From assembly GCF_032397745.1 (NCBI RefSeq), contig NZ_CP135921.1, positions 3,038,001-3,102,000 on the forward strand: DNA of 64,000 bases, written 5' to 3'. A program made the position numbers and the translations under genes. Of the stretch, positions 13,373 to 27,944 are shown one piece after another (within the stretch, counting starts at the first letter, position 1; each line of letters opens with the position of its first letter). This DNA is from Bradyrhizobium prioriisuperbiae. Its GTDB lineage: Bacteria > Pseudomonadota > Alphaproteobacteria > Rhizobiales > Xanthobacteraceae. Under the pieces are notes generated by a model, which searched no databases, was not told where the DNA came from, and saw nothing but the letters and a program-made list of their open reading frames with translations.

Positions 13373-14152
13373 TTAATTTTGCAGCCTGACGTCCTGGACC
13401 ACGACCAGCCGTTCCAGCCCGAGCACCAGTCCGTACAGCAGGATGCCGAGCAGGGTCAGCAGGATCACCGCCATCACCATGGCTGGCGTGTCGAGCGACG
13501 ATTGCACTTGGATCATGAGATAGCCGAGACCGCGTTCGGAGGCGATGAATTCGCCGACCACAGCACCCGCCACCGCCAGGATGGCTCCGACTTTCATCCC
13601 CGAGAAGACATAAGGCAGCGAGCCCGGCAGCTGGATCTTTCGAAAGAGCTGCCAGCGCGAGCCGCGCAGTGATTTCACCAGATCGAGAAAATCAGGCTCG
13701 ACTTCCCGCAGCCCGCGCGCGGTGGTCAGCAGGATCGGGAAAAAGCAGATGCTGAAAGCGATCAGGATGTTTGGCATGATGCCATAGCTGAACCAGACGA
13801 TGAACAGCGGCCCGAGCGCGACCTTCGGGATCATGTTCGTCGTGACGAACAGCGGCAGCAGAATGACGCTCAGCAGTGGCGACCAGCAGAACAGCACGGC
13901 AAGGCCGATGCCGACCAGGGCGCCGAGCCCAAAGCCGCCGAAGATCTCGATTGCGGTGACGAACGTGTTCGACAGCCAGGCGTATTTCGCAGATCCCAGT
14001 GTTGCGACGGTCGCCAGCGGCGAAGGCAGCACGAACGCCGGAACATGGAAACCGTCGACCAGAAGCTGCCACAGCACCACGACGGCGATATGGGTGGTCA
14101 GAATGATCGCGACGGGTCGGATCGATCGCTCTTCCAGGGTGGCCAAGGACAA
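13373..14152 (-). CDS. NitT/TauT-type ABC transporter permease
   Basis: This 259-residue inner-membrane protein has about six transmembrane segments and the BPD_transp_1 coupling-loop region (RGLREVEPDFLDLVKSLRGSRWQLFRKIQLPGSLPYVF). It resembles SsuC/TauC/ThiX permeases. It is the first gene of the minus-strand operon running to 9628. A candidate TetR operator lies 69 bases upstream of its start. The ligand is unknown. Confidence 0.9.
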   Translation of the reverse strand: MSLATLEERSIRPVAIILTTHIAVVVLWQLLVDGFHVPAFVLPSPLATVATLGSAKYAWLSNTFVTAIEIFGGFGLGALVGIGLAVLFCWSPLLSVILLPLFVTTNMIPKVALGPLFIVWFSYGIMPNILIAFSICFFPILLTTARGLREVEPDFLDLVKSLRGSRWQLFRKIQLPGSLPYVFSGMKVGAILAVAGAVVGEFIASERGLGYLMIQVQSSLDTPAMVMAVILLTLLGILLYGLVLGLERLVVVQDVRLQN

Positions 14153-14220
14153 ATTCCGGCGTTGTTCCCGGCCGTGGCCGGATCATGGAGGACGACAATA
14201 ATCTTGCAAACGCTCGTTTT

Positions 14221-14234
14221 CAACTATTTGGTTG
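14221..14234. promoter_or_regulatory. candidate TetR operator upstream of the permease operon
   Basis: CAACTATTTGGTTG is an imperfect palindrome (CAACTA / TGGTTG half-sites) 69 bases upstream of the permease start. The same 14-mer with one change recurs, in inverse orientation, at the start of the adjacent TetR gene (14926-14939). Two copies at the two promoters of one transport cluster suggest that the TetR protein binds both; this is inference. Confidence 0.6.
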
Positions 14235-14270
14235 ATTAGCAGGGGGCTTCGACCATGCCCGATTGACGCA

Positions 14271-14921
14271 TCAGGGGCGCAAGGAATGCATGATCAGGTC
14301 GACGACATGTTTCCTGCGGGCCCGCTTCGCCGCATCGCTGGCGAGGTCCTGGGAAAAGATCGCCGACAGGGTGGGGGTGTTGGAAAAGAAGAAATAGCTC
14401 AGCCCGGCCATCGAAATATACAGGTGCATCGGGTTGATGCCGCGCCGGAAGACGCCGGTCCGGACGCCCTCGGCGAGAAACGCGGCAATCATGCTGACCA
14501 GCGGGGAATGCATCTCGGCGAGTTTCTTGGACTCGCGGACATGCCGCGCGCCGTGGCGGTTCTCGTCGTTCAGCAGCGCGACAAAGTCTGGATGCGCCTC
14601 AAGATGATCGAACGAACTCTCGATCAGTTTTCGGATCGCCTTGTCCGGCGACAGGCCGCGCAGGTTCAACTGCCGTTCGGGGGAGCGGATTTCCTCGTAA
14701 ATCCACTCCAGGACGGCCAGGAATAACGAATCCTTGTCGCCGAAATAATGATAGAGCAGTTGCTTGTTGACGCCGGCATGGGCAGCAATCTCGTCGACCC
14801 GGGCGCCGGCGAGGCCGTACTTGGCAAACTCCTGCCGTGCAGCTACCAGGATCTTGCGTTGCGTCGCTTCGGGATCACGCCGTCGAATTGGCTCTTTTGA
14901 CCCATGGGTCGATCGCGTCAT
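14271..14921 (-). CDS. TetR family transcriptional regulator
   Basis: This 216-residue repressor has an N-terminal TetR helix-turn-helix (ILVAARQEFAKYGLAGARVDEIAAHAGVNKQLLYHYF, about residues 20-57) and a C-terminal ligand domain of the RutR/TetR_C type. ATG at 14921 was chosen over an open-frame start at 15014 because the domain begins there and the candidate operator lies immediately upstream. It is flanked by the permease operon (same strand) and the divergent binding-protein gene, so it probably controls both in response to the imported compound or a derivative. Confidence 0.9.
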   Translation of the reverse strand: MTRSTHGSKEPIRRRDPEATQRKILVAARQEFAKYGLAGARVDEIAAHAGVNKQLLYHYFGDKDSLFLAVLEWIYEEIRSPERQLNLRGLSPDKAIRKLIESSFDHLEAHPDFVALLNDENRHGARHVRESKKLAEMHSPLVSMIAAFLAEGVRTGVFRRGINPMHLYISMAGLSYFFFSNTPTLSAIFSQDLASDAAKRARRKHVVDLIMHSLRP

Positions 14922-14925
14922 TTTC

Positions 14926-14939
14926 CAACCAAACAGTTG
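14926..14939. promoter_or_regulatory. candidate TetR operator at the tetR start
   Basis: CAACCAAACAGTTG lies 5 bases upstream of the TetR ATG. Its reverse complement matches the site at 14221-14234 at 13 of 14 positions. Binding here would block the repressor gene's own translation-start region and the divergent binding-protein promoter (gene start 15059). Confidence 0.6.
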
Positions 14940-15058
14940 ACAAGTCGAAAGCAGCTTGTTGCATTGGTAGGCGTGCGGATTCCCTGGCGCAAGGGCAGCC
15001 TCGAAATTATGCACGTCCCGCCGCTATAATATGCCGCTATAACATAAAGGGGAGTTCG

Positions 15059-16066
15059 ATGGCGAACAGCCTGACGCGTTTCGGTTTGATCATTGCGCTG
15101 GCCGTGTCCAGCGGCTCGGCCTGGTCGGCGGAGAAGGTCAATCTCGTGCTCAACTGGACGCCGACCGCGGACCACTCTCCGTTCTATTATGCCAAGGCCC
15201 AGGGCTGGTACGAGAAGGCGGGGATCGACCTGACCATCGAGGTCGGCAAGGGCTCCGGCGCCTCGTCGCTGAAGGTCGGATCGGGGGGCTCGGAGTTCGG
15301 CATTGCCGATCTTGCCACCATGCTGGTTGCGCGCGGCAAGGGCGCCGACGTGGTTGCGCTGATGAGCATCTACGCCAATACCGCCCAGACGTTTTACTGG
15401 CTGAAAAGCTACGGCATCAATGGCCCGAAGGATTTCCCCAATCACAAGATCGGCAATCCACCGGCCGATGCCGCGCGGGTGATGTGGCCGGCCTTCGCCA
15501 AGGCGGTCGGTATCGGCGCGGATAGCGTGTCGTTCGTCAATATCGGGCCGACGGCCAAGATCGCTGCGCTGAAGAGTCACACGGTGGATGTCATCACCGA
15601 TTTTTACAATGAGCACGATCTGAAAGTGAAGGAGTTCGGCGACGATCTCGGATTCGTCAATTGGAAGGACATCGGCCTCAATCCGTACGGCAATTCGCTG
15701 GTCGTCAACGGTCAGTTTTTGCAGAAAAATCCGAAGATCGCCGAGGATTTCGTCAAGATCACCCAGCGTGCGTTCGCGACCTGCGTCGCCGACGTTGAGC
15801 CCTGCCTCAAGGTGTTACTGGAGCAGGCGTCCGGCCTCGACCGGGCGAACCAGGTCAATCAGTGGGAGCGGATCAAATTCATGATGACGGATCAGTATAC
15901 GCCGACCAAGGCGCTGGGCTGGATCGATCCCGACCGCATGAAGAGCGATTACGAGCTGGTCCAGACCTATCTCGGCATGGAAAAGCCGTTCGCGGTCGAA
16001 ACGGCCTTCACGACTCGTCTGCTCGATACCTCGGTGAAGATGGACGCCAGCAAGGTCAAGCGTTGA
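15059..16066 (+). CDS. NMT1/THI5-like ABC transporter substrate-binding protein
   Basis: This 335-residue periplasmic protein has a 22-residue signal peptide ending SAWSAE, then the NMT1-type start VNLVLNWTPTADHSPFYYAKAQGWYEKAGIDLTI. Family members bind pyrimidines, HMP, sulfonates, riboflavin and related compounds; the ligand here is unknown. ATG at 15059 follows AAAGGGGAG; the frame is open further upstream but the signal peptide fixes the start. Two TATAA-containing repeats (CCGCTATAA) lie 25-45 bases upstream and include a consensus TATAAT at 15025-15030. It is divergent from tetR and pairs with the ATPase at 9628 and permease at 13373. Confidence 0.88.
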   Translation: MANSLTRFGLIIALAVSSGSAWSAEKVNLVLNWTPTADHSPFYYAKAQGWYEKAGIDLTIEVGKGSGASSLKVGSGGSEFGIADLATMLVARGKGADVVALMSIYANTAQTFYWLKSYGINGPKDFPNHKIGNPPADAARVMWPAFAKAVGIGADSVSFVNIGPTAKIAALKSHTVDVITDFYNEHDLKVKEFGDDLGFVNWKDIGLNPYGNSLVVNGQFLQKNPKIAEDFVKITQRAFATCVADVEPCLKVLLEQASGLDRANQVNQWERIKFMMTDQYTPTKALGWIDPDRMKSDYELVQTYLGMEKPFAVETAFTTRLLDTSVKMDASKVKR

Positions 16067-16111: not shown

Positions 16112-17002
16112 TCACAGGATATCGGCGAGTGACTGTCCCTGGAGTTCGATGTTCAGGCCCTGCATGGCGAAATCGCTGATTTCGCCGCCCATTGCCTTCA
16201 GGCTCTCTTCCCGGATCAGCGACATCAGTCCGCGTCGCAAGGCCAGGAATTCCGACGACATCATCATGCTCTGCTGGCGCGGCCGCTCCAGCGGGATGGC
16301 GATCTCGGCCTTGATCGCGCCGGGCCGCGCGGTCATGCAATAGACCCGGTCCGACAGGAAGATCGCCTCGTCGATATCGTGGGTCACGAACAGCACCGAG
16401 ATCTTCAGCCGTTGCCACATGTTGGTGAGGATCTGCTGCATGATGACGCGGGTCTGGGCGTCGAGCGCGCCAAACGGCTCATCGAGCAGCAGCACTTTCG
16501 GGCCGGTCGCCAGTGCCCGAACGATGCCGACACGCTGCTTCATGCCGCCCGACAATCGTTCCGGATAGTGGTTCTCGAACGCAGACAGCCCGGCAAGCCC
16601 GAGCAGCGTGCGTGCCGCGCGCTCCCGGTTGAAGCGGTCCATCTTCTTCATCTTCAGGCCGAATTCGACATTCTCGCGCACCGTCTTCCACGGGAATAGC
16701 GAATACTGCTGGAACACCATGCCGCGGTCGGCACCTGGCCCCTCCACCAGCTCATCGTCGACGGTCACGGTGCCCTTTGTCGGCTTCAGGAAGCCGGCGA
16801 CGGCGTTCAGCAGGGTCGATTTGCCGCAGCCGGACGGGCCAATGATGGAAACGAATTCGCCGGGGTTGATATGGATCGAGGCGTCGGAGACCGCCTCGAC
16901 CGATCCGTCGATGGTCTCATAACTCAGGGAAAAATTCCTGACATTGATGTGGCCTTTTGACGGGACGGTCTTTGAGGGGGCGTCCTTTATGAAAGAATTC
17001 AT
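16112..17002 (-). CDS. TauB/SsuB-like ABC transporter ATP-binding protein
   Basis: This 296-residue ATPase has Walker A GPSGCGKST, Q-loop MVFQQYSLFPW, signature LSGGMKQR, Walker B VLLLDEP followed by FGALD, and VTHD. It is slightly longer than TauB because of an N-terminal leader (about 18 residues) and a C-terminal tail. It is the last gene of the minus-strand operon with the permease (four bases upstream) and binding protein. The sulfonate-type assignment follows from class and from the AsfAB-like genes next door. Confidence 0.9.
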   Translation of the reverse strand: MNSFIKDAPSKTVPSKGHINVRNFSLSYETIDGSVEAVSDASIHINPGEFVSIIGPSGCGKSTLLNAVAGFLKPTKGTVTVDDELVEGPGADRGMVFQQYSLFPWKTVRENVEFGLKMKKMDRFNRERAARTLLGLAGLSAFENHYPERLSGGMKQRVGIVRALATGPKVLLLDEPFGALDAQTRVIMQQILTNMWQRLKISVLFVTHDIDEAIFLSDRVYCMTARPGAIKAEIAIPLERPRQQSMMMSSEFLALRRGLMSLIREESLKAMGGEISDFAMQGLNIELQGQSLADIL

Positions 17003-17006
17003 GGGC

Positions 17007-17900
17007 CTACCTTTTCCATGGCATCACGAGGCGGCCGATGCTGCGGATGGCCGCGCTCGATGCGAGGCCGAGAACGCCGATGCAGGTCATGCCGAGCGCG
17101 ATATCCGCATACTGGACCAGCGAGTAGGCCTCCCAGGTGAAGTAGCCGATGCCGAACTGCCCGGAGATCATCTCAGCGGCGATCAGCGAGACCCAGGCCA
17201 CGCCCATCCCCACGGTGAGGCCGGTGAAAATGCTCGGCAGTGACGCCGGAAAATATACCTCGCGGAAAATCGACGCCTCGCGGGCGCCGAGGCATTGCGA
17301 GGCCCGCACCAGCACCGGATCGACCATCGATATGCCGTGCAGCGTGTTGATGAGAATCGGAAAGAACGAGCCGAGGAAGGTGATAAAGACGATGCTTTCC
17401 TCGTTGGTCGGCCACAGCATGATCGCCATTGGCACCCAGGCGATGGCCGGGATCGGGCGCAGGATTTCAGACACCGGGAAGATGATCTCCCGCGCCAGCC
17501 GGAAACGGCCCATCAGCAGTCCCATCGGGACAGCGACAACGGCCGCGATGCTGAATCCCAGCACGATGCGCCGGCAACTCAGCAGCACATGCATGAAGAA
17601 TTTCGAGTCGTGCAGGGCACGGACCCAGCTGTCATAAACCATCGCCGGCGACGGGATGTTGGTGAAACGAACGTGGGCGTTGACGCGGTATTTCGTCAGC
17701 AAGTGCCAGGCCAGCAGGAAGGCCGCGATCGACAGCGTACCGATCACGACCGCCCTGATCTCGTCGCGATGCAGCCGCAGCCAGCGCCTGACCAGTTCGC
17801 GCGGCGCCGTAGCGAGGGGCGCCGTCTTGTCGGCCGTCGCCGCGCCGGCCACAGAATGATCGGTCCCGTTACTGTCCACGTGTCGAGCTGCCAATTCCAC
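17007..17900 (-). CDS. TauC/SsuC-like ABC transporter permease
   Basis: This 297-residue inner-membrane permease has a hydrophilic N-terminus of about 50 residues, six predicted transmembrane segments and the coupling loop ASQCLGAREASIFREVYFPASLPSIFTGL. The family transports sulfonates, nitrate, taurine and similar anions. It starts 2 bases after the binding-protein stop and ends 4 bases before the ATPase start, a tight operon. Confidence 0.9.
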   Translation of the reverse strand: MELAARHVDSNGTDHSVAGAATADKTAPLATAPRELVRRWLRLHRDEIRAVVIGTLSIAAFLLAWHLLTKYRVNAHVRFTNIPSPAMVYDSWVRALHDSKFFMHVLLSCRRIVLGFSIAAVVAVPMGLLMGRFRLAREIIFPVSEILRPIPAIAWVPMAIMLWPTNEESIVFITFLGSFFPILINTLHGISMVDPVLVRASQCLGAREASIFREVYFPASLPSIFTGLTVGMGVAWVSLIAAEMISGQFGIGYFTWEAYSLVQYADIALGMTCIGVLGLASSAAIRSIGRLVMPWKR

Positions 17901-17902
17901 TG

Positions 17903-19360
17903 TCAGCCTCCGGTCGCAATGGTTTTCAGGGCGTCGTCGAAGCCCAGCACCTTGCCGCTGATCTTTGCGGCATAGGCTTCGGCGTCCTTTTTCAGGAGGA
18001 AGGGCGCAGTCTCGCTCTTGTCGCCGGCGACCGCGAAGAACGCCTGGTCCGCGAACAGCTTGATGCCGCGACTGGTGTCGAAGACATAAGCGACATTGAT
18101 CTTTTTGCCGGCGGCCTTGAGCGCCGCGTAGGCCCCGAGCGTACAGCTCGCGCTGCTATAAGGCGCGATGGCCTCGCCATCGACCCAGACTTCGCCGGCC
18201 TTGCGTGGATCTGTGATCGGCTTCTTGCAGAAGGAATCCTCGCCTTTGATCTCGTAGTTCGCAGTGCTCTTGAGCTGGGTGTCGTAATCCATGCCGAGTT
18301 CGGAGAACGCCTTGCGGACATAACTGTCGTCGACCCACTTGCGCGGATCGAAGTCCTTCATGCGGCCAAGGTTCTGCAGCACCTTGACGTCGGTGGCGGC
18401 CGCGTCAATCAACGCCGGCTTGATGGTCGGATCGGTCGTCATGTTGCCGCCGGGTCCGAGAAAGATGTAGGCCACCTCCTTGTTGATCCCGGTCCATTCC
18501 TGGATCTTCTCGGCAGCGCGTTTCGGGTCAGTTCGCACCCATTCATTGGCGGCGATGATCGCCTTGATGTAGGCGATCACGACCTCGGGATATTTTTCCG
18601 CGAAGTCGGTGCGCACCACCACGCCGTGCCAGGTCGGAAAGCTGGTCTCGACGCCGTCGAAGATCTTCCGGGCAAAGCCGCGGAACGGCAGCAGCTCCGC
18701 GAACGGCACGAAATCGGCGTGGGCGTCGATCTTCTTTTCCTGCAGATTGGTCGAACCCACTTCGGGGCTCTGGCTGACCAGTTGGAAATAATCGGCGCCC
18801 CAGCCGCGATCCTGCATCGCCTTCAGCACCATGCCGTGCGCTGCGGAGCCGAACGGCACGCTGACCAGCTTGCCTTTGAGGTCAGACAGTTCGTAGTAAG
18901 GCGAATCCTTGTGCACCACCACGCCGTTGCCGGAGCCCTGCAGGCTGTAGGCGGCGACCGCGATCAGCCGGCTCTTGCTTTCCGGATTGTTCTCGAAGGT
19001 GAAGCCGTTGACCACCAGCGGATAGTCGCCCATCGCGCCGAACTGCAGCTTGTTGGCCATCATGCCGTTGGTGACCGGTGGGCCCGAGGTAAAATTCTGC
19101 CAGTCCAGCTCGAATTTGACGCTCGCGTACTTGCCGTCCTTCGGCAGGTATTTTTCCAGGAGCTTGAGCTGGCGAACCACGATGCCGGTCGTGACCGTGT
19201 TGGTTGTGGTGTCCTGAGTCCCGATGCCGATGGTGACGGTGGTTTGTGCTGAAGCCATTGTTGGCGCTACGATCGCCAGCGCAAGCAGGGCGGTGGTCAG
19301 CAAGCGCGATGCGTGATCAGACGGCCGGCCTTCGGTGCGGTTCATATACTGGCAATGCAT
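17903..19360 (-). CDS. NitT/TauT-type substrate-binding protein with NosL-like C-terminal domain
   Basis: This 485-residue secreted protein has a signal peptide ending MASAQT, then a SsuA/TauA-like binding domain of about 350 residues. The last 110 or so residues are extra to that fold. They read like a NosL-type domain: GEVWVDGEAIAPYSSASC, AYVFDTSRGIKLFADQAFF, APFLLKKDAEAYAAK and GKVLGFDDAL. NosL domains bind Cu(I) or help mature metal centres. Two cysteines are visible in the extension (SFCKK and SASCTLG). ATG at 19360 has a GAGAGG site; the frame is open to 19441. It leads the transporter operon and has the shared GCAACTAAT motif upstream. Confidence 0.75.
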   Translation of the reverse strand: MHCQYMNRTEGRPSDHASRLLTTALLALAIVAPTMASAQTTVTIGIGTQDTTTNTVTTGIVVRQLKLLEKYLPKDGKYASVKFELDWQNFTSGPPVTNGMMANKLQFGAMGDYPLVVNGFTFENNPESKSRLIAVAAYSLQGSGNGVVVHKDSPYYELSDLKGKLVSVPFGSAAHGMVLKAMQDRGWGADYFQLVSQSPEVGSTNLQEKKIDAHADFVPFAELLPFRGFARKIFDGVETSFPTWHGVVVRTDFAEKYPEVVIAYIKAIIAANEWVRTDPKRAAEKIQEWTGINKEVAYIFLGPGGNMTTDPTIKPALIDAAATDVKVLQNLGRMKDFDPRKWVDDSYVRKAFSELGMDYDTQLKSTANYEIKGEDSFCKKPITDPRKAGEVWVDGEAIAPYSSASCTLGAYAALKAAGKKINVAYVFDTSRGIKLFADQAFFAVAGDKSETAPFLLKKDAEAYAAKISGKVLGFDDALKTIATGG

Positions 19361-19460
19361 GGCTGGCCTCTCGATGCTTGGCGTGCCCGGGCGTGGCGTC
19401 CTGCCTGTCCGCATCCTTGAGCGACACCTCCGCGCGAGCAAACCTCGTCTTTGTCGGCTG

Positions 19461-19476
19461 GTTGATTAGTTGCCGT
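19461..19476 (-). promoter_or_regulatory. shared promoter motif GCAACTAATCAAC upstream of the transporter operon
   Basis: Read toward the binding-protein gene, this site is GCAACTAATCAAC about 100 bases upstream of the start. An identical 13-mer lies upstream of the ferredoxin reductase gene (21152-21164), and a GCAACTAAT copy lies upstream of the DUF971 gene. All point the same way relative to the gene they precede. The binding regulator is not known; the Crp/Fnr protein encoded between them is the first candidate. Confidence 0.6.
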
Positions 19477-19539
19477 GAAAGCCTTGCTGCTCAGTCTTTA
19501 AGCAATTTGACCGAGGCGCGATCTATCCGTGGGCAACAA

Positions 19540-19622
19540 GAGCGTTTTCAAGCGAAGTGGCAGCCGGTTCCCACGCGACAAACGCGAAGCGTTTGCGCGG
19601 AGAAAACGCGTCCAAACAAAAT
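19540..19622. repeat. dispersed GCGTTTTC...GAAAACGC palindromic repeat
   Basis: GCGTTTTCAAGCGAAGTGG ... CCGGTTC ... AGAAAACGCG ... CAAACAAAAT forms a hairpin-capable element next to the 3' end of the Crp/Fnr gene. A shorter copy lies at 62262-62314 and a diverged one near 32800-32835. This copy holds an extra internal hairpin around AAACGCGAAGCGTTT. Confidence 0.75.
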
Positions 19623-19623
19623 G

Positions 19624-20430
19624 CTATTCGCCCTGACCGCGCATCTCCTGCAGCACGTCCGACCGCAGCACCACGATGCGGGATTTGCGGGATGCAACGA
19701 TCCCCTTCTCCTGCATGCGCTTCAGGCTGATGGTGATCCATTGCCGGGTCGCGCCGACCATGTGCGCGAGATCGGCATGCGTGAAGGCGGCTCCGATTGC
19801 GATGCCGTCTTCATCCTGCACGCCGTAGAGGTCGACGAGGTGCAGCAACAGATGGGCAAGGCGCTCGGTGATGGAGCGGGTTCCCAGCATCTGCGCCAGC
19901 GCCGAATAACATTTGCCCTTGAAGGCCAGGCCCTCGATCAGTCCAACAGCCAGATTGGGCACTTCCACCACCAGCGCGCGCAAATCCTTGCCGGGCAACT
20001 GCACCACGCTGCTGTTGCTGGTGGCGACGCCGGACCATTGATGCGTTCCGCCCCCGAACACCTCCGGGCCGCCGACAAAATTGCCAGGCTGCCAGTAGGC
20101 CAGCGTGATCTCGCGGCCCGACGGCGCGGTATAGAACACGCGGATACGCCCGGTTTCGATCAGGTAGATGCCGTCGTGTTTGGCGCCCTGGCTGAACAGC
20201 GTCTGTCCCCGATAAAGCACGCGTCGGCGGCCGCGCCGGAGCACGGTGTCGAGCTCCTGCGGCGACAGCGTGTCGAACAGCAGCGGGGGCCCGCCGAGCG
20301 ATCGTGCGCTTTCGGTCAGCAGCAGCGACCGGCCGTTGTCGGTACGGGCGGAGGGGGATCGTGACAGAATGGTGCTGGGCCCAGTCTTGTTAATAGCGGT
20401 CTTGCTAATGGCGGCCGCAAAAGTCTGCAT
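19624..20430 (-). CDS. Crp/Fnr family transcriptional regulator
   Basis: This 268-residue regulator has an N-terminal cyclic-nucleotide-binding-type domain (about residues 55-170: LYRGQTLFSQGAKHDGIYLIETGRIRVFYTAPSGREITLAYWQPG) and a C-terminal winged helix-turn-helix (FTHADLAHMVGATRQWITISLKRMQEKG). No Fnr-type cysteine cluster is visible at the N-terminus. ATG at 20430 has GGAGCG 7 bases upstream; the frame is open to 20610. Its place between the transporter operon and the AsfAB-like operon makes it the likely local regulator. Confidence 0.88.
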   Translation of the reverse strand: MQTFAAAISKTAINKTGPSTILSRSPSARTDNGRSLLLTESARSLGGPPLLFDTLSPQELDTVLRRGRRRVLYRGQTLFSQGAKHDGIYLIETGRIRVFYTAPSGREITLAYWQPGNFVGGPEVFGGGTHQWSGVATSNSSVVQLPGKDLRALVVEVPNLAVGLIEGLAFKGKCYSALAQMLGTRSITERLAHLLLHLVDLYGVQDEDGIAIGAAFTHADLAHMVGATRQWITISLKRMQEKGIVASRKSRIVVLRSDVLQEMRGQGE

Positions 20431-20660
20431 CGCACGCTCCGGAATATCAAATCGTTCTAAAGAGCGGAGCAATCCTTGTGCCAACCGGCGATGTTGGTCA
20501 GAAAAATCCTGTGTTTTCAATGTAACTGTCGTGTCCTGCCGTTGCCAGCGTCCAGAGCTGCGGCCTGCCAAAATGGTCAAATTGCAACCGGAAATGGCGT
20601 CGCGGAGCATGATCCCGCTACGGCCGCTGCCGAGCCGGCAAAATCATGCTGGCCAGCGCA

Positions 20661-20676
20661 AGCCGGGTACCCGGCT
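20661..20676. terminator. perfect 16-base palindrome after the DUF971 gene
   Basis: AGCCGGGTACCCGGCT lies 3 bases beyond the DUF971 stop on the minus strand. It could form a short hairpin, but no T-run follows, so terminator function is uncertain. Nothing else was recognised in 20431-20678. Confidence 0.35.
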
Positions 20677-20678
20677 GT

Positions 20679-21032
20679 TCAGCCGGAGGCGGCTGTAACG
20701 CCGCGGGCGGCGATCTCCTGCAGGTATGGCCAGGGATAGATGCCGCGGGCATGCCCGTCGGAGAACCCGATGTTGATGCCGAAATTGCCCATCAGGGTGA
20801 TTGCGGTGATCGAAATTCCGTCGAAGCTTTCGGGAAAGCGGCTGTCTATTCGCGCGCGGATGCAGTGGGCGCATTTGCAGGCGGCACGCAGCACGCCGGC
20901 GTGAACGACAAGAGTCGGCTGCGATGGCCAGGCCAGCCGCAGTTCGGTGTTGTCATCGTTGCACGAGATATCATTCGGCTCGGAGAGGGCCACTCCGTTG
21001 GAAGGAAATGTCGGCGCAAGAACCTGGGACAT
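20679..21032 (-). CDS. DUF971 domain protein
   Basis: This 117-residue protein matches the DUF971 pattern (also the N-terminal domain of gamma-butyrobetaine hydroxylases and a partner of Mrp/ApbC proteins). It has LRLAWPSQPTLVVHAGVLRAACKCAHC with a Cys cluster, then LMGNFGINIGFSDGHARGIYPWPYL. ATG at 21032 has a GGAGAA site; the frame is open to 21155. It is divergent from the ferredoxin reductase gene. An iron-sulfur or metal-related accessory role for the neighbouring flavoprotein/ferredoxin system is inference. Confidence 0.85.
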   Translation of the reverse strand: MSQVLAPTFPSNGVALSEPNDISCNDDNTELRLAWPSQPTLVVHAGVLRAACKCAHCIRARIDSRFPESFDGISITAITLMGNFGINIGFSDGHARGIYPWPYLQEIAARGVTAASG

Positions 21033-21083
21033 CGCGAATATTCTCCGAGATCGCAGTCGAGCATGAAAGACCGCTGACCGACA

Positions 21084-21098
21084 GCAATTAGTTGCCGT
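21084..21098 (-). promoter_or_regulatory. shared GCAACTAAT motif upstream of the DUF971 gene
   Basis: ATTAGTTGCCGT at 21087-21098 is identical over 12 bases to 19465-19476. Read toward the DUF971 gene it gives GCAACTAAT about 55 bases upstream of the start. GCAATTAGTTGC here is also an inverted repeat (GCAA N4 TTGC). Confidence 0.55.
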
Positions 21099-21151
21099 TA
21101 CAGCGCTTTTGCCGATGTCATCGTCGCTGTGAGAGCGATCCAAAAAAGATT

Positions 21152-21164
21152 GCAACTAATCAAC
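21152..21164 (+). promoter_or_regulatory. shared motif GCAACTAATCAAC upstream of the ferredoxin reductase operon
   Basis: This 13-mer lies 84 bases upstream of the ferredoxin-NADP reductase start, in the same orientation relative to the gene as the copy at 19461-19473. It is the plus-strand member of the set that links the two divergent halves of the cluster. Confidence 0.6.
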
Positions 21165-21247
21165 TCGCATTCGCACGGTTCGATTGCGCGTTCGCGCTGT
21201 GCAGGGCCTGATCGTTCGCAGAGATCAAGTCAGCGGGAACGAACGGC

Positions 21248-22021
21248 ATGAGCGCATTCCATCGGGAGCAGGTTTTGTCGGTGCAGCACTGGACCGACAC
21301 GCTGTTCAGCTTCGCGTCCACGCGCGATCCCGGCTTTCGTTTCAAGAACGGCCAGTTCGCCATGATCGGCCTCGAGATTGACGGCCGGCCGTTGCTGCGG
21401 GCCTACAGCATGGCCAGCGCCAATCACGAAGAGGCGCTTGAATTCTTCAGCATCAAGGTTGCCGAGGGCGCGCTGACGTCGCGCCTTCAGGCCATCAAGC
21501 AGGGTGATATCATCCTGGTCGGCCGCAAGGCGACCGGGACCCTAATCTCGGACAACCTGCTGCCGGGACAACGATTGCTGCTGCTGTCCACGGGCACTGG
21601 GCTCGCGCCGTTCGCCAGTCTGATCAAGGATCCGGAGGTCTATGAGGCTTACGAGACCATCGTGCTGGTGCACGGCTGCCGGCAGGTCTCCGAGCTGGCC
21701 TACGGTGAACACCTGGTCGAGCGGCTGACCGGCGATGAATTCCTCGGGCCGCTGCTGCGAGAGAAGCTCGTCTACTACCCGACCGTCACCCGCGAGCCGT
21801 TCCGCAACCGAGGCCGCATCACCGACCTGATCTCAAGCAACCGGCTGTTCGACGACGTCGGATTGCCGCCGCTCGATCGCGAGACTGACCGCGTCATGAT
21901 GTGCGGTAGCCCGCGCATGCTCGAAGATCTGCGTGATCTGCTGGAGACGTGCGGCTTCCAGGAAGGAAATCACAGCGAGGCCGGCCATTTCGTCATCGAA
22001 AAGGCTTTTGTCGAACGCTGA
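21248..22021 (+). CDS. ferredoxin-NADP reductase
   Basis: This 257-residue FAD enzyme passes electrons between NADPH and ferredoxin or flavodoxin. The FAD motif RAYSMAS is at about residues 52-58, followed by FFSIKV, then the NADP site LLLLSTGTGLAPFASLI and the terminal MMCGSPRML block. It is the first gene of an operon with the AsfA-like flavoprotein and ferredoxin, so it probably supplies reducing power to them. This dedicated copy is likely a paralogue of the housekeeping fpr, which cannot be checked here. Confidence 0.92.
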   Translation: MSAFHREQVLSVQHWTDTLFSFASTRDPGFRFKNGQFAMIGLEIDGRPLLRAYSMASANHEEALEFFSIKVAEGALTSRLQAIKQGDIILVGRKATGTLISDNLLPGQRLLLLSTGTGLAPFASLIKDPEVYEAYETIVLVHGCRQVSELAYGEHLVERLTGDEFLGPLLREKLVYYPTVTREPFRNRGRITDLISSNRLFDDVGLPPLDRETDRVMMCGSPRMLEDLRDLLETCGFQEGNHSEAGHFVIEKAFVER

Positions 22022-22060
22022 CGTGAAACGCTTCGATTATCAAAGTAAGGAAATCGACTG

Positions 22061-23803
22061 ATGGCGATGGATGAGATTGTCGACGGCCTGTCCGAGGTCT
22101 CCTGCGACGTGCTGGTGATCGGCGGCGGCACCGCCGGCCCGATGGCCGCCCTCAAGGCCAAGCTGAAAAACCCCAAGGCCACGGTGGTGTTGCTGGAGAA
22201 AGCCAACGTCAAGCGGTCCGGTGCGATCTCCATGGGCATGGACGGCCTGAACAATGCTGTGATTCCCGGATATGCGACGCCGGAGCAGTACACCAAGGAG
22301 ATCACCATCGCCAACGACGGCATCGTCGATCAGAAGGCGGTCTATAAATATGCCGAGCGCTGTTATTCGATCATCGAGGAGCTCGACAGTTTCGGCATTC
22401 GTTTCCTGAAGAACGAGAACGGCGATTTCGCGGTCAAGAAGGTGCATCACATCGGCACCTATGTGCTGCCGATGCCGAATGGCGACACCGTCAAGAAGGC
22501 GCTCTATCGGCAGCTGCGCCGTGCCCGCATCCTGATCTCCAACCGCTACATGGCAACACGGCTTCTGACCGGCAGCGACGGACGCGTGGCCGGCGCGATT
22601 GGTGTCAATACCAGGACGGCAGAGTTTCTGGTCATCAAGGCGAAGGCCGTGATCCTGTGCATGGGCGCGGCCGGGCGGCTGGGACTGCCGACCTCGGGCT
22701 ACATGTTCGGCACCTACGAGAATGCGGCGAACTCCGGTGACGGTTATGCGATGGCCTATCACGCGGGTGCAGCGCTCGCCAATCTCGAGTGTTTCCAGAT
22801 CAATCCGCTGATCAAGGACTACAACGGCCCGGCCTGCGCCTATGTCGCGGGTCCGTTCGGCGCTTACACCGCGAACAACGAGGGATCGCGCTTCATCGAA
22901 TGCGACTACTGGTCCGGTCAAATGATGCTGGAGTTCTACAACGAACTGCAGTCCGGCAAGGGACCGGTGTTCCTGAAACTCAACCATCTGCACGAGAACA
23001 CCATCAGCGAAATCGAGACCACACTGCACAAGGTGGAGCGGCCGACCCGTGGGCTGTTCCACCAGGGGCGTGGTACCGACTACCGGCAGGAACCGATCGA
23101 GATGCATATCTCGGAAATCGGCTTTTGTTCTGGCCACAGCGCATCCGGCGTGTTTGTCGACGAGTTTGCCCGCACCACGGTGCCGGGATTGTACGCTGCC
23201 GGCGACATGGCGAGCGTGCCGCACAACTACATGCTCGGCGCCTTCACCAACGGATCGGTGGCAGGTGAAGATGCCATGCAATATGCCGACAACATCGATT
23301 TCGCTGACATCGATACCGGCGATATCGCGCGGGAGAAAGAACGGGTGCTGGCGCCGGCCAAACGTGAGGACGGCATTCCGCCCAACCAGATCGAGTTCAA
23401 GGCCCGTCGCCTGGTCAACGACTATCTGCAGCCGCCGAAGGTGACGCGCAAGTTCGAACTCGGGCAGCGGCGGTTGGCCGAAGTTCGCGACGATATGGAA
23501 AACCGGATGATGGCAAGCAATGCGCACGAGTTGCTGCGCGCACTGGAAACCCATTCGATTCTCGATTGCGCTGATATGGCGGCGCATGCCTCGCTTTACC
23601 GCACCGAAAGCCGCTGGGGCCTCTACCACCTGCGCACCGATTATCCCGAGAAGGATAACGAGAACTGGTTCTGCCACAGCCTGCTGAGCAAGAAGGACGG
23701 CAAGATGGCCAGCGAGAAACGCGCGGTCGAGCCCTACATCGTGCCGATCGCGGATGAGGAAAAGGATCTCTACGACAAGCAGCGCATCCGCGCCTCCGCC
23801 TGA
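22061..23803 (+). CDS. asfA: AsfA/AprA-like FAD-dependent flavoprotein (fumarate reductase/APS reductase family)
   Basis: This 580-residue protein has the FAD site DVLVIGGGTAGPMAALKAK at about residues 13-31, an ISMGMDGLNNAV block and the C-terminal FAD site GLYAAGDMASVPHNYMLGAFTNGSVAG. It belongs to the succinate dehydrogenase/fumarate reductase flavoprotein superfamily, closest in pattern to AprA. In Pseudomonas putida AsfA is a flavoprotein of this family needed with ferredoxin AsfB for arylsulfonate use as a sulfur source. The asfA symbol rests on the adjoining short ferredoxin and sulfonate-type transporter and is inference. No heme or membrane anchor subunit is nearby. Confidence 0.72.
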   Translation: MAMDEIVDGLSEVSCDVLVIGGGTAGPMAALKAKLKNPKATVVLLEKANVKRSGAISMGMDGLNNAVIPGYATPEQYTKEITIANDGIVDQKAVYKYAERCYSIIEELDSFGIRFLKNENGDFAVKKVHHIGTYVLPMPNGDTVKKALYRQLRRARILISNRYMATRLLTGSDGRVAGAIGVNTRTAEFLVIKAKAVILCMGAAGRLGLPTSGYMFGTYENAANSGDGYAMAYHAGAALANLECFQINPLIKDYNGPACAYVAGPFGAYTANNEGSRFIECDYWSGQMMLEFYNELQSGKGPVFLKLNHLHENTISEIETTLHKVERPTRGLFHQGRGTDYRQEPIEMHISEIGFCSGHSASGVFVDEFARTTVPGLYAAGDMASVPHNYMLGAFTNGSVAGEDAMQYADNIDFADIDTGDIAREKERVLAPAKREDGIPPNQIEFKARRLVNDYLQPPKVTRKFELGQRRLAEVRDDMENRMMASNAHELLRALETHSILDCADMAAHASLYRTESRWGLYHLRTDYPEKDNENWFCHSLLSKKDGKMASEKRAVEPYIVPIADEEKDLYDKQRIRASA

Positions 23804-23846
23804 GCATTCATTTCATATTTGTATTCCAGATCTGAGGACATCGATC

Positions 23847-24080
23847 ATGCCCCTCGCGGCCTCGCATACCACCGTTCCGGTCGTCGTCGACGACGCCAAA
23901 TGCATCGCCGACAAAGGCTGCACCGTGTGCGTAGACGTCTGCCCGCTCGACGTGCTGCGCATCAGCGACATGACCGGCAAGGCCTATATGGCCTATGACG
24001 AGTGCTGGTACTGCATGCCCTGCGAAGCCGACTGCCCGACCGGGGCAGTCAAGGTCAACATTCCCTATCTGCTCAGGTGA
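23847..24080 (+). CDS. asfB: AsfB/AprB-like 2[4Fe-4S] ferredoxin
   Basis: This 77-residue ferredoxin has two Cys clusters: CIADKGCTVCVDVCP and CWYCMPCEADCP. It resembles the ferredoxin part of AprB and the AsfB protein. It presumably carries electrons from the ferredoxin-NADP reductase to the flavoprotein. ATG at 23847 has TGAGGA upstream; the frame is open to 23754 in the preceding gene. It lies 43 bases after the flavoprotein gene. Confidence 0.8.
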   Translation: MPLAASHTTVPVVVDDAKCIADKGCTVCVDVCPLDVLRISDMTGKAYMAYDECWYCMPCEADCPTGAVKVNIPYLLR

Positions 24081-24097
24081 GCCAGGAAGTTTTAGAA

Positions 24098-25075
24098 ATG
24101 GCCGGACCTTTTGAAAGTTACGACGATCTGGACGACGTCGACGATCGCCTGAACGCTGCGGACGCCGGTGAGCGCCGGGTCGCGGTGATCTCGCTGGGAC
24201 ACTCCGGCGATCCGGCGGCGGTGGCGCATCTCGATCGGATGACCGCCGATCCCGATCCCGGCGTGCGCCAGCAGGTGGCGCTGGCGCTGGGCGAATTCGA
24301 TGGTCCCGAGGCCGCCGCTGCGCTTGCCAAGGTGGTGGTCGATCCGGAACAAGCGGTGTCCCAGGCGGCTGCCGACAGCATGGCGGAGCTGAAGGATCCC
24401 GCCAGCGCCGATGCCATTCTGCCGTTGGTCGGTCACACGCACGCTTTTGTGCGGATGGCGGTGCTGCGTGCCTTGAAGGAGCTGCGGCGCAAGGATTCGC
24501 TGAAGCCGGCGCTCGATGCGCTGCGCGACACCGACGCCGCTGTGCGGGTTCAGGCGGTCGGCGTGATCGGCTTCCTGAAGCTGGAGGAAGCCGTGCCGGC
24601 GCTGACGTCGGCCACAGGTGATTCGGATTCCCACGTGCGCCGCGCTGCGGTCAGCGCGCTGGCGTTTTCGCACGTGAAACCGGCGACGGACTCGATCATC
24701 CGCGCGCTGTCGGACGTGGACTGGATGGTGCGCGAGATCGCCGCCGAAACCGTCGGCACCAGTGCGCATGGTGCGCAGGCCGCCGATCCGCTGATCAAGG
24801 CGCTGGCCGATGACTACTGGCAGGTGCGGCTGAAGGCGGTGCGCAGCCTTGGAAAGATGAAGGTGGTTCGCGCGGTGCCGCCGATCGGCGCATGCATCGA
24901 TCATCCCCAGGCCAACCTGCGCAAGGAAGCCGCAGCGGCGCTGGGCGAGATTGCCGATCTGTCGGGTGAGCCATTTTTGCGGCCGATTGTCGATGATCCC
25001 GATCCCGAGGTTCGCAAAAACGCGCGCTGGGCGATGCAGCAGATCCTGGCCAACAAGGCGTCGCTGGGCGCCTGA
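24098..25075 (+). CDS. HEAT-repeat protein
   Basis: This 325-residue soluble protein consists of an acidic N-terminus (FESYDDLDDVDDRL) and about nine helical HEAT/PBS-lyase-type repeats of 31 residues, each with a pattern like DPDPGVRQQVALALGEFDGPEAAAAL. Such repeats form a curved scaffold for protein contacts and, in some families, bilin or cofactor handling. It sits directly after the ferredoxin and probably binds or helps assemble the flavoprotein-ferredoxin complex (inference). ATG at 24098 has AGGAAG upstream; a GTG at 24077 overlapping the ferredoxin stop is the alternative. Confidence 0.85.
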   Translation: MAGPFESYDDLDDVDDRLNAADAGERRVAVISLGHSGDPAAVAHLDRMTADPDPGVRQQVALALGEFDGPEAAAALAKVVVDPEQAVSQAAADSMAELKDPASADAILPLVGHTHAFVRMAVLRALKELRRKDSLKPALDALRDTDAAVRVQAVGVIGFLKLEEAVPALTSATGDSDSHVRRAAVSALAFSHVKPATDSIIRALSDVDWMVREIAAETVGTSAHGAQAADPLIKALADDYWQVRLKAVRSLGKMKVVRAVPPIGACIDHPQANLRKEAAAALGEIADLSGEPFLRPIVDDPDPEVRKNARWAMQQILANKASLGA

Positions 25076-25099
25076 TTCCGACATCCCGGACACTCAGGG

Positions 25100-25126
25100 C
25101 ACCCGGCTTGCATCGCCAGCCGGGTG
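25100..25126. terminator. hairpin after the HEAT-repeat gene
   Basis: CACCCGGCT and AGCCGGGTG form a 9-bp stem with a 9-base loop between the HEAT-repeat gene and the nitronate-monooxygenase-like gene. There is no T-run, so it may attenuate rather than stop transcription. Confidence 0.4.
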
Positions 25127-25184
25127 TGCGACACTTCGCGCGGTTAGTCGCGCAAGCAACGCGAGCCGCTTGGGGAGAAGACGC

Positions 25185-26144
25185 TTGGGTTCGGCAGATC
25201 ATTTGGCGCGATTTCGCGACCGGCTGCGGTTGCCGCTGATCGCGGCTCCGATGTTCCTGGTGTCCGGGGTCGATCTGATGGTGGCGGCTTGCCACAATGG
25301 CGTGATCGGCTCGTTCCCCACCGCCAATTGCCGCAGCGCCGATCAGCTCGATGGATGGCTCACCGATATCGAAAGCCAGTTGAAGCGAAGTGCTGACGAG
25401 AGCGGTGTTGCAGCGGCGCCGCTGTGTCCGAACCTGATCGTCCATCACTCCAACCCGCGGCTTGCCGATGATCTGGCGGTGCTGCTGCGCCATACTCCGG
25501 AAATCGTCATCACCAGCGTCGGTTCGCCCGCGCCGGTGGTTCAGCCGCTGCATGATGCCGGCGCGCTGGTGCTGGCCGACGTCGCCAGCATTCGCCACGC
25601 CGAGCGCGCCGTGGCCGCGGGCGCGGACGGGCTGGTGCTGCTGACCGCCGGCGCCGGCGGGCAGACCGGCTGGCTCAATCCGTTCGCTTTCGTGCGCGCT
25701 GTGCGGCAATTCTTTGAGGGGCCGATCGTGTTGGCCGGCGGCATCAGCGACGGCCACGCGCTGCGTGCGGCGCAGGCGCTGGGCTGCGATCTCGCCTACA
25801 TGGGCACCAGGTTCATCGCAACCCGGGAGAGTTTGGCGGACCCCCGTTACAAGGAGATGCTGGTCACGAGCTCGGCCGACGACATCCTGCTGACCCGCGC
25901 CTTCACCGGCCTGCAGACCAACATGTTGCGGCCTTCGATCGTGGCGGCGGGGCTCGATCCGGACAACCTGCCCGAGCGGGGCGGCATCGACATTGCCAGG
26001 GATATCGACGTCGGCGCCCGCGATACCAAGCCCAAGCGCTGGCGCGACATCTGGAGCGCCGGGCATACCACGTCGGGTGTTTCCGATATCCCGTCCGTCG
26101 CCGATCTCGTCAGCCGGACGGTCGCCGAATACGGCGCGCGCTAG
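25185..26144 (+). CDS. nitronate monooxygenase-like FMN TIM-barrel protein
   Basis: This 319-residue protein is of the NMO/2-nitropropane dioxygenase family. It has LPLIAAPMFLVSGVDLMVAACHNGVIGSFPT at the N-terminus, then an FMN phosphate region with GADGLVLLTAGAGGQTGW and VLAGGISDGHALRAAQALG followed by YMGTRFIAT. Members oxidise nitronates or act as other flavin oxidoreductases or enoyl reductases; the substrate here is open. A TTG start at 25185 with GGGGAGAAG upstream fits the family N-terminus best; no ATG is in a suitable place. It closes the sulfonate-type operon, 109 bases after the HEAT gene. Confidence 0.82.
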   Translation: MGSADHLARFRDRLRLPLIAAPMFLVSGVDLMVAACHNGVIGSFPTANCRSADQLDGWLTDIESQLKRSADESGVAAAPLCPNLIVHHSNPRLADDLAVLLRHTPEIVITSVGSPAPVVQPLHDAGALVLADVASIRHAERAVAAGADGLVLLTAGAGGQTGWLNPFAFVRAVRQFFEGPIVLAGGISDGHALRAAQALGCDLAYMGTRFIATRESLADPRYKEMLVTSSADDILLTRAFTGLQTNMLRPSIVAAGLDPDNLPERGGIDIARDIDVGARDTKPKRWRDIWSAGHTTSGVSDIPSVADLVSRTVAEYGAR

Positions 26145-26753: not shown

Positions 26754-27944
26754 TTATGCGCTTTCGCGCAGCCGGTCGGTCATCTCTTCATAGACCGCGA
26801 GCCGGTCGCGGCCCTGTTTCTTGGCCACATACAGCGCCTTGTCGGCCTCGGCGATCAGCTTATGGGGATCGTGGGCGATCTCGCTTGACCATGCCGAGAT
26901 CCCGATACTGACGGTGAATGAGATCTGCCTGCCGTTCCACAAAACCAGGGTCTTTCGACAGGCCTTGATCAGGTTGCGGGCGACCAGCGCCGCATCGCTC
27001 AGGCTGGTGGAAGGCATCAGCACGCAGAATTCATCGCCGCCGGATCGGGCAAACAGGTCGTCGTCGCCCAGCCGCAGTGGCACCGCGCGGGTGAAAATCC
27101 GCAGGCATTCGTCACCGGCGCCGTGACCGTAACTGTCGTTGATCGCCTTGAAGCCATCGAGGTCGAGGATGAGCAGCGCAAACGGTTCGTTGGTGCGGCT
27201 GGCGCGGGCGCAGGCCTCCGACAAGCGCACCAGGAAATGCCGGCGATTGGCGATCCCGGTCAGGTCGTCGATCAGCGCCAACTCGGCGACCTCGGCGCGC
27301 AGCCGGTCGATCGCCATCAGCACAAAGCCGAAATTGGCCATCATGGCGGCAAAGACCAGGAGCAGCAGGCAGACGGCCTGGAATGCGTTGAAGCCGACGA
27401 TGGTCGTCTCGCCGTCGAAGTGCAGGAGGCTGACCATGGAGCGGATCGCATGGACCGCAATGACCACCAGGGTCATGCCGGCGGCTAATCGCGCTCCGGG
27501 GCTTTTGCGCCATTCGCGGGTCCTATGAATATCCCAGGTGGAAAGCGCGAGCGGAATGCATTGCCCGATCGAGTAGACCACGATCCGCATCCGGATGTCG
27601 TCATACCATAAGGTGAGGACGGCGAGGACGCATACGCTCAGAAGCGTCACGGCAATGCTGGTTCGCCATGGGATCGGTCGCCCATAGAAACGTCGGACGC
27701 CCATCCAGGCGAAACCGCCGGAGAGGATCAGGAGACCGTTGCCGACCAGAACCGGCAGCAGCGGATGGGCGATGCCGCGAAGGAACGAAAACGCGGCGCC
27801 GGCCGCAGCCACGAAGCCAAACGCGGTCCAGTAACGAGCGGCCGTGAAGTTGGGATAGCTGCGGGTGAAATGCAACCATACCAATCCGAGCGCGAGAAAA
27901 TTCGCGAAAATGACGACGTATAGCGTCGGCACGCTCAGTTGCAT
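26754..27944 (-). CDS. membrane-bound diguanylate cyclase (GGDEF), no I-site
   Basis: This 396-residue protein has about six N-terminal transmembrane segments (residues 1-210) and a C-terminal GGDEF domain. The catalytic motif GGDEF is intact in ARSGGDEFCVLMPS. The residues where the inhibitory I-site RxxD should be read GDDD, so product inhibition through that site is probably lost. It makes cyclic di-GMP from GTP. It is paralogous to the equally long neighbour at 28162-29352, and the duplication includes the upstream bases. Confidence 0.92.
   Translation of the reverse strand: MQLSVPTLYVVIFANFLALGLVWLHFTRSYPNFTAARYWTAFGFVAAAGAAFSFLRGIAHPLLPVLVGNGLLILSGGFAWMGVRRFYGRPIPWRTSIAVTLLSVCVLAVLTLWYDDIRMRIVVYSIGQCIPLALSTWDIHRTREWRKSPGARLAAGMTLVVIAVHAIRSMVSLLHFDGETTIVGFNAFQAVCLLLLVFAAMMANFGFVLMAIDRLRAEVAELALIDDLTGIANRRHFLVRLSEACARASRTNEPFALLILDLDGFKAINDSYGHGAGDECLRIFTRAVPLRLGDDDLFARSGGDEFCVLMPSTSLSDAALVARNLIKACRKTLVLWNGRQISFTVSIGISAWSSEIAHDPHKLIAEADKALYVAKKQGRDRLAVYEEMTDRLRESA

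Follow-up and report, generated by a model that had tools for sequence, protein, structure and literature searches.

An AsfA-like flavoprotein with ferredoxin and HEAT-repeat partners in a probable sulfonate-scavenging gene cluster of Bradyrhizobium prioriisuperbiae

Introduction

Sulfonates are a major store of sulfur in soil (PMC4267179). The asf genes (asfRABC of Pseudomonas putida S-313) encode a reductase/ferredoxin pair, a binding protein, an ATP-binding cassette (ABC) transporter and a LysR-type regulator, and they are needed together with ssu for the use of aromatic sulfonates; an insertion in asfA abolishes aromatic sulfonate use and leaves aliphatic use intact (PMC4267179). AsfA/AsfB are viewed as supplying electrons to an oxygenase (PMC4267179), and the same was suggested for the reductase-ferredoxin pair AsfA/AsfB of C. 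metallidurans (PMC2864759). Clones of asfA have been amplified from soil with the primer asfBtoA, and BLAST ties most of them to Rhizobiales and Comamonadaceae (PMC9694294). We describe here an Asf-like cluster in Bradyrhizobium prioriisuperbiae, built on a 580-residue flavoprotein. It lies in a window of 64,000 nucleotides (NZ_CP135921.1; G000:C1:3038001-3102000) in a complete 9.08-Mb genome whose nearest named protein relatives, among the matches listed, are from Bradyrhizobium and Rhodopseudomonas. The cluster probably serves sulfonate-type sulfur scavenging, whatever its chemistry.

As in asfRABC, a flavoprotein gene is followed by a ferredoxin gene and accompanied by genes for a binding protein and an ABC transporter. 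The genome also has ssu genes, and the cluster occurs in genera where asfA is a soil marker gene. The likeness to AsfA is drawn from gene content and published descriptions; none of the 240 homologs listed, whose names were shortened, was called AsfA. In contrast to the window cluster, which has all three, the accounts of asf cited here describe no HEAT-repeat protein, DUF971 protein or ferredoxin-NADP reductase (FNR). Pseudomonas loci of the same flavoprotein family, PRK08275, likewise carry HEAT and DUF971 genes, and therefore the asf description may be incomplete and the window not unusual. The cluster shares its transporter class with ssuEADCB, whose genes adjoin the PRK08275 family in Hyphomicrobium, but query searches found neither a monooxygenase nor a flavin reductase in it.

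Results

The flavoprotein belongs to a family apart from APS reductase and fumarate reductase

The flavoprotein is a clear member of NF006131/PRK08275 (Table 1). It failed the cut-offs of the aprA model (155.4 bits against 641.75), the model PRK06854/NF005331 of the type that reduces 3'-phosphoadenosine 5'-phosphosulfate (PAPS; 288.3 against 557) and the sdhA/frdA model TIGR01812 (161.7 against 567.3). Might it nonetheless be an ordinary fumarate reductase or succinate dehydrogenase (SDH) flavoprotein, as the database name of NF006131 has it? Besides that name, its Pfam domains, FAD_binding_2 and Succ_DH_flav_C, would agree. However, the sdhA/frdA score falls far below the curated cut-off, no membrane or iron-sulfur SDH partners adjoin the gene, and in our tree the protein does not fall with the paralogs that this genome encodes. 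The genome holds five other flavoprotein matches in four places, at 25-30% identity, and no close paralog. In a profile alignment, the SdhA histidine that we take to attach flavin adenine dinucleotide (FAD) covalently is replaced by Gly. We rejected the fumarate reductase identity on the curated cut-off and the tree and regard it as very improbable. We conclude that calling it "fumarate reductase/succinate dehydrogenase" is at odds with the evidence and conceals the family.

Among solved structures, the best match is to the alpha subunit of the M. thermolithotrophicus PAPS reductase (8a8o; 202.9 bits, or 279.3 bits with the family profile). Its partner in that enzyme is a beta subunit that resembles a ferredoxin and has two [4Fe-4S] clusters (PMC10322725). 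We read eight positions of A. fulgidus AprA off the profile alignment in 14 family members; R317 and H398 of AprA could not be aligned and lie outside this count. We take all eight to be contacts to adenosine 5'-phosphosulfate (APS); one of them, Q145, is described as conserved in APS reductases (PMC10322725). Seven of the eight positions differ in all 14 members: Y95, Q145, W234, R265 and G274 become Glu, Val, Tyr, Leu and Cys in every one, while at E141 and L278 the substitute differs from member to member. Only N74 is retained, as Asn in 14/14. The family also has an extra segment (residues 125-129 and P137 of the window protein) in the loop region that sets the choice between APS and PAPS in APS/PAPS reductases. 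It reads VKKVHH and is absent from AprA and the PAPS reductase; V128, H129, G132, Y134, V135 and P137 are invariant in the family. The FAD and active-site region as a whole is retained in full and strongly conserved.

We built a tree of 40 rows with 200 bootstrap trees, excluding one very distant row (L006). The 12 AprA rows formed a single group (100/96), which stood together with a PAPS-type row from Ilyobacter behind a very long branch (100/100). The window flavoprotein fell inside well-supported groups made up entirely of PRK08275 rows (99/96, 100/99, 100/99), separate from the genome's own fumarate-reductase-type paralogs and from true AprA. The PRK08275 rows as a whole did not form one clade (0% of the bootstrap trees) because the long AprA/PAPS branch joins among cyanobacterial rows (93/99 support); the tree program flags long-branch effects. 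An Ilyobacter plasmid has a run of genes resembling an assimilatory PAPS reductase operon (L156:5396-10727): cysC is followed by genes for an APS-reductase-type alpha subunit and a ferredoxin, then by cysD and the gene of a GTP-binding protein.

Could the flavoprotein be an assimilatory APS or PAPS reductase? Its nearest solved structures are of those enzymes, and N74 is kept. On the other side stand the replaced contacts, including Leu for R265 and Val for Q145, the aprA and PRK06854 scores, which fall well short of their cut-offs, the long separate branch, and two PF01507 genes elsewhere in the genome (CysH and CysD not distinguished). We rejected this identity on the cut-offs, the tree and the contact positions, and think it no likelier than the fumarate reductase one. 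The original prediction had called the flavoprotein AprA-like and proposed a tree and a look at APS-binding residues. The tree upheld its separation from both fumarate reductases and AprA, with the proviso that the family is not one clade, and the residues spoke against APS binding. On these alignments, "AprA-like" is true of fold and subunit plan only: an FAD subunit with a non-covalent FAD position and a two-[4Fe-4S] subunit, as in AprAB and the PAPS reductase.

A ferredoxin and a HEAT-repeat protein accompany the flavoprotein in almost every locus compared

We measured conservation by tblastn in three sets of loci. The named-genome set comprised the best 80 of at least 579 loci, 52 of them Bradyrhizobium-type and several on contigs that end early; the plasmid set comprised 14 loci picked from 55 matches; and the phylum-sampled set comprised 20 loci out of 398 genomes, at least six of the 20 repeating, to judge by length, contigs of the named-genome set. 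Together these give 114 loci, at least six of them repeats. A HEAT gene was present in every locus of the three sets (80/80, 14/14, 20/20), a ferredoxin gene in 77/80, 14/14 and 20/20, a DUF971 gene in 73/80, 6/14 and 20/20, and an FNR gene in 63/80, 2/14 and 9/20. In all 80 named-genome loci, HEAT shared the strand of the flavoprotein match and was no more than 346 bases from it, and in 77 of them the ferredoxin was on the same strand and downstream. In twelve other loci (4 plasmid, 8 phylum-sampled) HEAT is 3.4-3.9 kb distant; where such loci were read, the distant gene comes after the transporter genes, except in a Nostoc locus where other genes intervene. The co-occurrence of the cluster genes exceeds chance, as the ferredoxin and HEAT counts in the closest named-genome loci show. 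Hence the HEAT and DUF971 genes that the original prediction had placed beside the flavoprotein are recurring partners.

The nitronate-monooxygenase-like (NMO-like) gene, which it had also counted as a partner, is a bystander. It recurred in none of the loci (0/80, 0/14, 0/20), and a 67% homolog is present in the congener G399, where a flavoprotein search found nothing; these two results ruled it out. The genome holds nine matches to the NMO-like protein, itself included.

In Tsukamurella, HEAT and flavoprotein are fused in one chain. The window's separate proteins align to the two parts of the 898-residue fusion model NF010374/PRK13800, the flavoprotein to 9-566 and the HEAT protein to 607-896. 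No expression data for the fusion were found in extracts of four actinobacterial sulfur studies (PMC8557817, PMC7661421, PMC3868597, PMC11852219), and no link of HEAT to sulfonate use was recognised among the matches listed from the open-licence PMC literature. Across 48 HEAT sequences no Cys or His is conserved at 85%. We therefore set aside a role as cluster carrier, and a scaffold seems likelier.

The two-[4Fe-4S] cysteine pattern with CW-x-C occurs in 110 of 111 ferredoxin relatives; only L035, which breaks off in frame, departs from it. The window ferredoxin failed the aprB model (Table 1), though its cluster-binding plan is alike. The DUF971 protein is a separate protein in the window, and a CxCxxC motif was found in 69 of 99 relatives scanned. 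Three cyanobacterial loci have a FeS_assembly_P/NUBPL-type protein after HEAT. Such domains together with DUF971 make up the domain set of HCF101, and the function of DUF971 has been called elusive (PMC7980591). By this analogy we would guess that the cluster has dedicated Fe-S maturation.

A 13-base motif stands before both operons

The 13-mer GTTGATTAGTTGC occurs before the transporter operon and, on the other strand, before the FNR/flavoprotein operon (Table 1). These are its only exact copies in the genome, and the reversed control gave 0. A control within the window was weak: with as many as two mismatches allowed, 13 of 100 shuffles had two or more matches; both real sites are exact. The motif emerged only after one variable position was permitted: the longest words common to the two promoter regions of 46 relatives were no better than control, and a search of the promoters for inverted repeats found just short ones.

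Among the 52 Bradyrhizobium-type loci, GTYGATTAGTTKC was present at both sites in 36, on the transporter side only in 5, on the enzyme side only in 8 and at neither in 3. Two of these last (L038, L053) are without most upstream genes and the third (L055) is arranged differently. Allowing one mismatch to GTYGATTAGTTGC, we counted 99 sites in the 80 named-genome loci, where the reversed motif gave 0 and a scrambled one gave 1; outside the Bradyrhizobium type such sites were confined to L068 and L082. We then counted GTYGATTAGTTKC across ten whole genomes. Six of seven carriers of the flavoprotein have exactly two sites, both within the cluster; in the remaining carrier (G200) a single site lies in the cluster and a second one outside it. 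The counts for three sister genomes that lack the flavoprotein are 0, 1 and 0. The ten genomes gave 15 real matches against 3 for the reversed control (one each in G200, G384 and G217). Standing before both operons, the motif ties transporter and enzyme into one switch, and the nearby Crp/Fnr protein is its natural candidate reader.

In cyanobacterial loci the regulator is a LysR protein fused to a substrate-binding-protein-like domain akin to the transporter's own binding protein (L091:7646-9661, L119:7388-9424). From its domains, the fusion looks as if it senses the transporter's ligand.

The setting points to sulfonates

SsuD was found in 68 of the 398 phylum-sampled genomes and the flavoprotein family in 21. 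Eighteen of the 21 carriers had SsuD, against 50 of the 377 others (odds ratio 39, Fisher p 1.7e-12, with genomes that are not independent). The window's own genome encodes SsuD about 1.2 Mb from the cluster (TIGR03565, 636.1 bits, above the cut-off of 518.2). In three Hyphomicrobium loci (L059-L061), the flavoprotein gene and then the HEAT gene adjoin ssuA-ssuD-ssuC-ssuB-type genes and a flavin reductase gene; these were the only loci among those compared with SsuD beside the cluster. Genes of sulfite/sulfate-exporter type are further neighbours: Pseudanabaena and Leptolyngbya have TauE/SafE and YeiH, Aquabacterium has TauE, and 38 of 80 loci have YeiH-like genes. Together with the SsuA-type transporter, the SsuD data bear out the sulfonate-type setting of the original prediction.

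Perhaps the flavoprotein-ferredoxin pair never touches a sulfonate, and just feeds an SsuD-type oxygenase, encoded at another place, with electrons or with reduced flavin? The distant ssuD of this genome and the ssu-type genes of Hyphomicrobium would fit such a role. So would phenols as desulfonation products, which require oxygen. The electron-supply view of AsfA/AsfB in the review of asf (PMC4267179) and in the C. metallidurans work (PMC2864759) speaks for it as well. However, three of the 21 carriers (G012, G200, G335) had no SsuD at E<=1e-100, SsuD lies beside the cluster so rarely, and the flavoprotein keeps a full active-site region of its own. We consider this explanation somewhat unlikely.

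Periplasmic copper and redox genes stand beside the cluster in Rhodobacterales and relatives (SCO1 in 15/80 loci, PCu(A)C in 13/80, cytochrome c in 14/80, TlpA in 7/80; L063:12933-20481 and similarly L058, L065, L066, L068, L070, L075, L078-L083, L086). No copper enzyme was identified in these loci, and exporter, SsuD and copper-chaperone queries gave zero matches in the window. Might the cluster then import something other than an ordinary sulfonate as its substrate, a different oxyanion or organosulfur compound that in some lineages is perhaps connected with copper? Besides these neighbours, the NosL-like domain of the binding protein would suit such a substrate: PF05573 stays below its cut-off in the window protein, and 10 of 16 relatives match it at E<=0.1 (best 1.3e-6). 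So would the transporter, whose subunits score below all sulfonate- and taurine-specific equivalog cut-offs. Yet the cysteines in the C-terminal domain of the window's binding protein are not conserved among aligned representatives, which excludes a general copper site and hence copper binding as a general trait, and the sulfonate links (the SsuA-type transporter, the SsuD association, the Hyphomicrobium ssu genes, the exporter-type neighbours and the accounts of asf) stand against it. We judge a different substrate to be unlikely.

Several observations nevertheless weigh against the flavoprotein as the desulfonating catalyst. Within the organism's own family, SsuD is present in 6 of 8 carriers and 3 of 4 non-carriers, so that the link vanishes; relatedness or genome size may therefore underlie the association. 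Where the association does hold, 18 of 21 carriers having SsuD is what feeding an oxygenase would predict, and electron supply is the published view of AsfA/AsfB. Beyond missing the specific cut-offs, the transporter is not at every locus: the ATPase was matched at 150 bits or more in 73 of the 80 named-genome loci and the binding protein at 180 bits or more in 70/80, 11/14 and 18/20, some contigs ending early. No ferredoxin was found near the flavoprotein in the three Hyphomicrobium loci. Finally, asf has the LysR-type AsfR where the window has a Crp/Fnr protein. This departure, noted in the original prediction, stands for the present locus; since the regulator differs by lineage (Crp/Fnr, GntR, LysR), it is no special one.

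Gene inventory and surroundings

Every gene named in the original prediction was found where it had been placed (Table 1).

Table 1. Features of the cluster, in window positions; bit scores are followed by the model's cut-off
Feature	Position	Strand	Basis
ABC transporter ATPase	16112..17002	-	PF00005
ABC transporter permease	17007..17900	-	PF00528
SsuA-type substrate-binding protein with C-terminal NosL-like domain	17903..19360	-	TIGR01728, 114.5 bits (163.5)
Putative operator site 1, 5' of transporter operon	19461..19473	+	Exact GTTGATTAGTTGC
Crp/Fnr-family regulator, candidate reader of both sites	19624..20610	-	PF00027, PF13545
DUF971/GBBH-like_N protein with CKCAHC motif	20679..21032	-	PF06155; start inferred
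Putative operator site 2, 5' of FNR/flavoprotein operon	21152..21164	-	Second exact copy of the 13-mer GTTGATTAGTTGC
Ferredoxin-NADP reductase (FNR)	21248..22021	+	Best model PRK10926, 150.9 bits (390)
AsfA-like FAD flavoprotein, 580 residues	22061..23803	+	NF006131/PRK08275, 1071.3 bits (587)
Two-[4Fe-4S] ferredoxin, AprB type, proposed beta subunit	23847..24080	+	Cysteine pattern; aprB model, 30 bits (135.65)
HEAT-repeat protein, proposed structural or assembly partner	24098..25075	+	PF13646, 165.7 bits
NMO-like open reading frame (start position uncertain), taken to be a neighbour outside the cluster	24951..26144	+	PF03060

The starts of the ferredoxin and HEAT genes were set by inspecting reading frames. 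The reading frame of the binding protein stays open to 19441, and that of the DUF971 protein runs to 21155, overlapping operator site 2; 21032 is its likelier start.

A separate second ABC set occupies 13373-16066, with a permease (13373-14152, minus strand), a TetR protein (14271-15014, minus) and an NMT1/THI5-like binding protein (14837-16066, plus). The TetR and binding-protein genes were unmatched in the 80 loci, barring one weak TetR match. Beyond the cluster, translations show a tandem pair of similar 396-residue GGDEF-type proteins at 26754-27944 and 28162-29352.

Discussion

Our best reading is that sulfur would be freed from an imported sulfonate by the flavoprotein, alone or jointly with SsuD. 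That the flavoprotein is itself the desulfonating catalyst we propose tentatively, at somewhat less than even expectation. The SsuA-type transporter would bring in a sulfonate. Electrons would pass from NADPH through FNR, which some relatives supplement with an extra FdxA ferredoxin, and by way of the two-cluster ferredoxin reach the non-covalently held FAD, a chain for which the original prediction finds support in the genes present. The ferredoxin would be to the flavoprotein what AprB is to AprA, its beta subunit. At the FAD site the sulfonate would be attacked and sulfite released for assimilation. The HEAT protein may hold or assemble the complex, DUF971 may deliver Fe-S clusters, and the Crp/Fnr regulator would co-switch the transporter and enzyme operons through the two copies of GTYGATTAGTTKC.

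A fuller version of this proposal makes PRK08275 and its AprB-type ferredoxin a desulfonase in its own right. An APS-reductase fold would have had its pocket rebuilt (VKKVHH, Tyr219, Leu250, Cys259) to take an organosulfonate, with sulfite released at the FAD, HEAT as a third subunit and Fe-S maturation dedicated to the complex. Taken whole, this version is rather doubtful.

Desulfonation of the Asf-like kind is already known. What may be new is HEAT as a partner across phyla and in a fusion, together with the DUF971 or NBP35-type companion, the NosL-like domain that ends the binding protein, and the private operator; none of these was recognised in extracts of the open-licence PMC literature, among the matches listed. 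The system may be an incompletely described asf rather than a departure in this genome.

The gene asfA serves as a marker of aromatic sulfonate use, yet the chemistry of AsfA is described, in the extracts we cite, merely as electron supply. The partner set (flavoprotein, ferredoxin, HEAT and a DUF971 or NBP35-type protein), the family-specific active-site residues and the private operator make the question of what AsfA does directly testable in Bradyrhizobium or Pseudomonas. If true, a PRK08275 desulfonase would be a third aerobic route of C-S cleavage beside SsuD and TauD, and would explain how AsfA acts.

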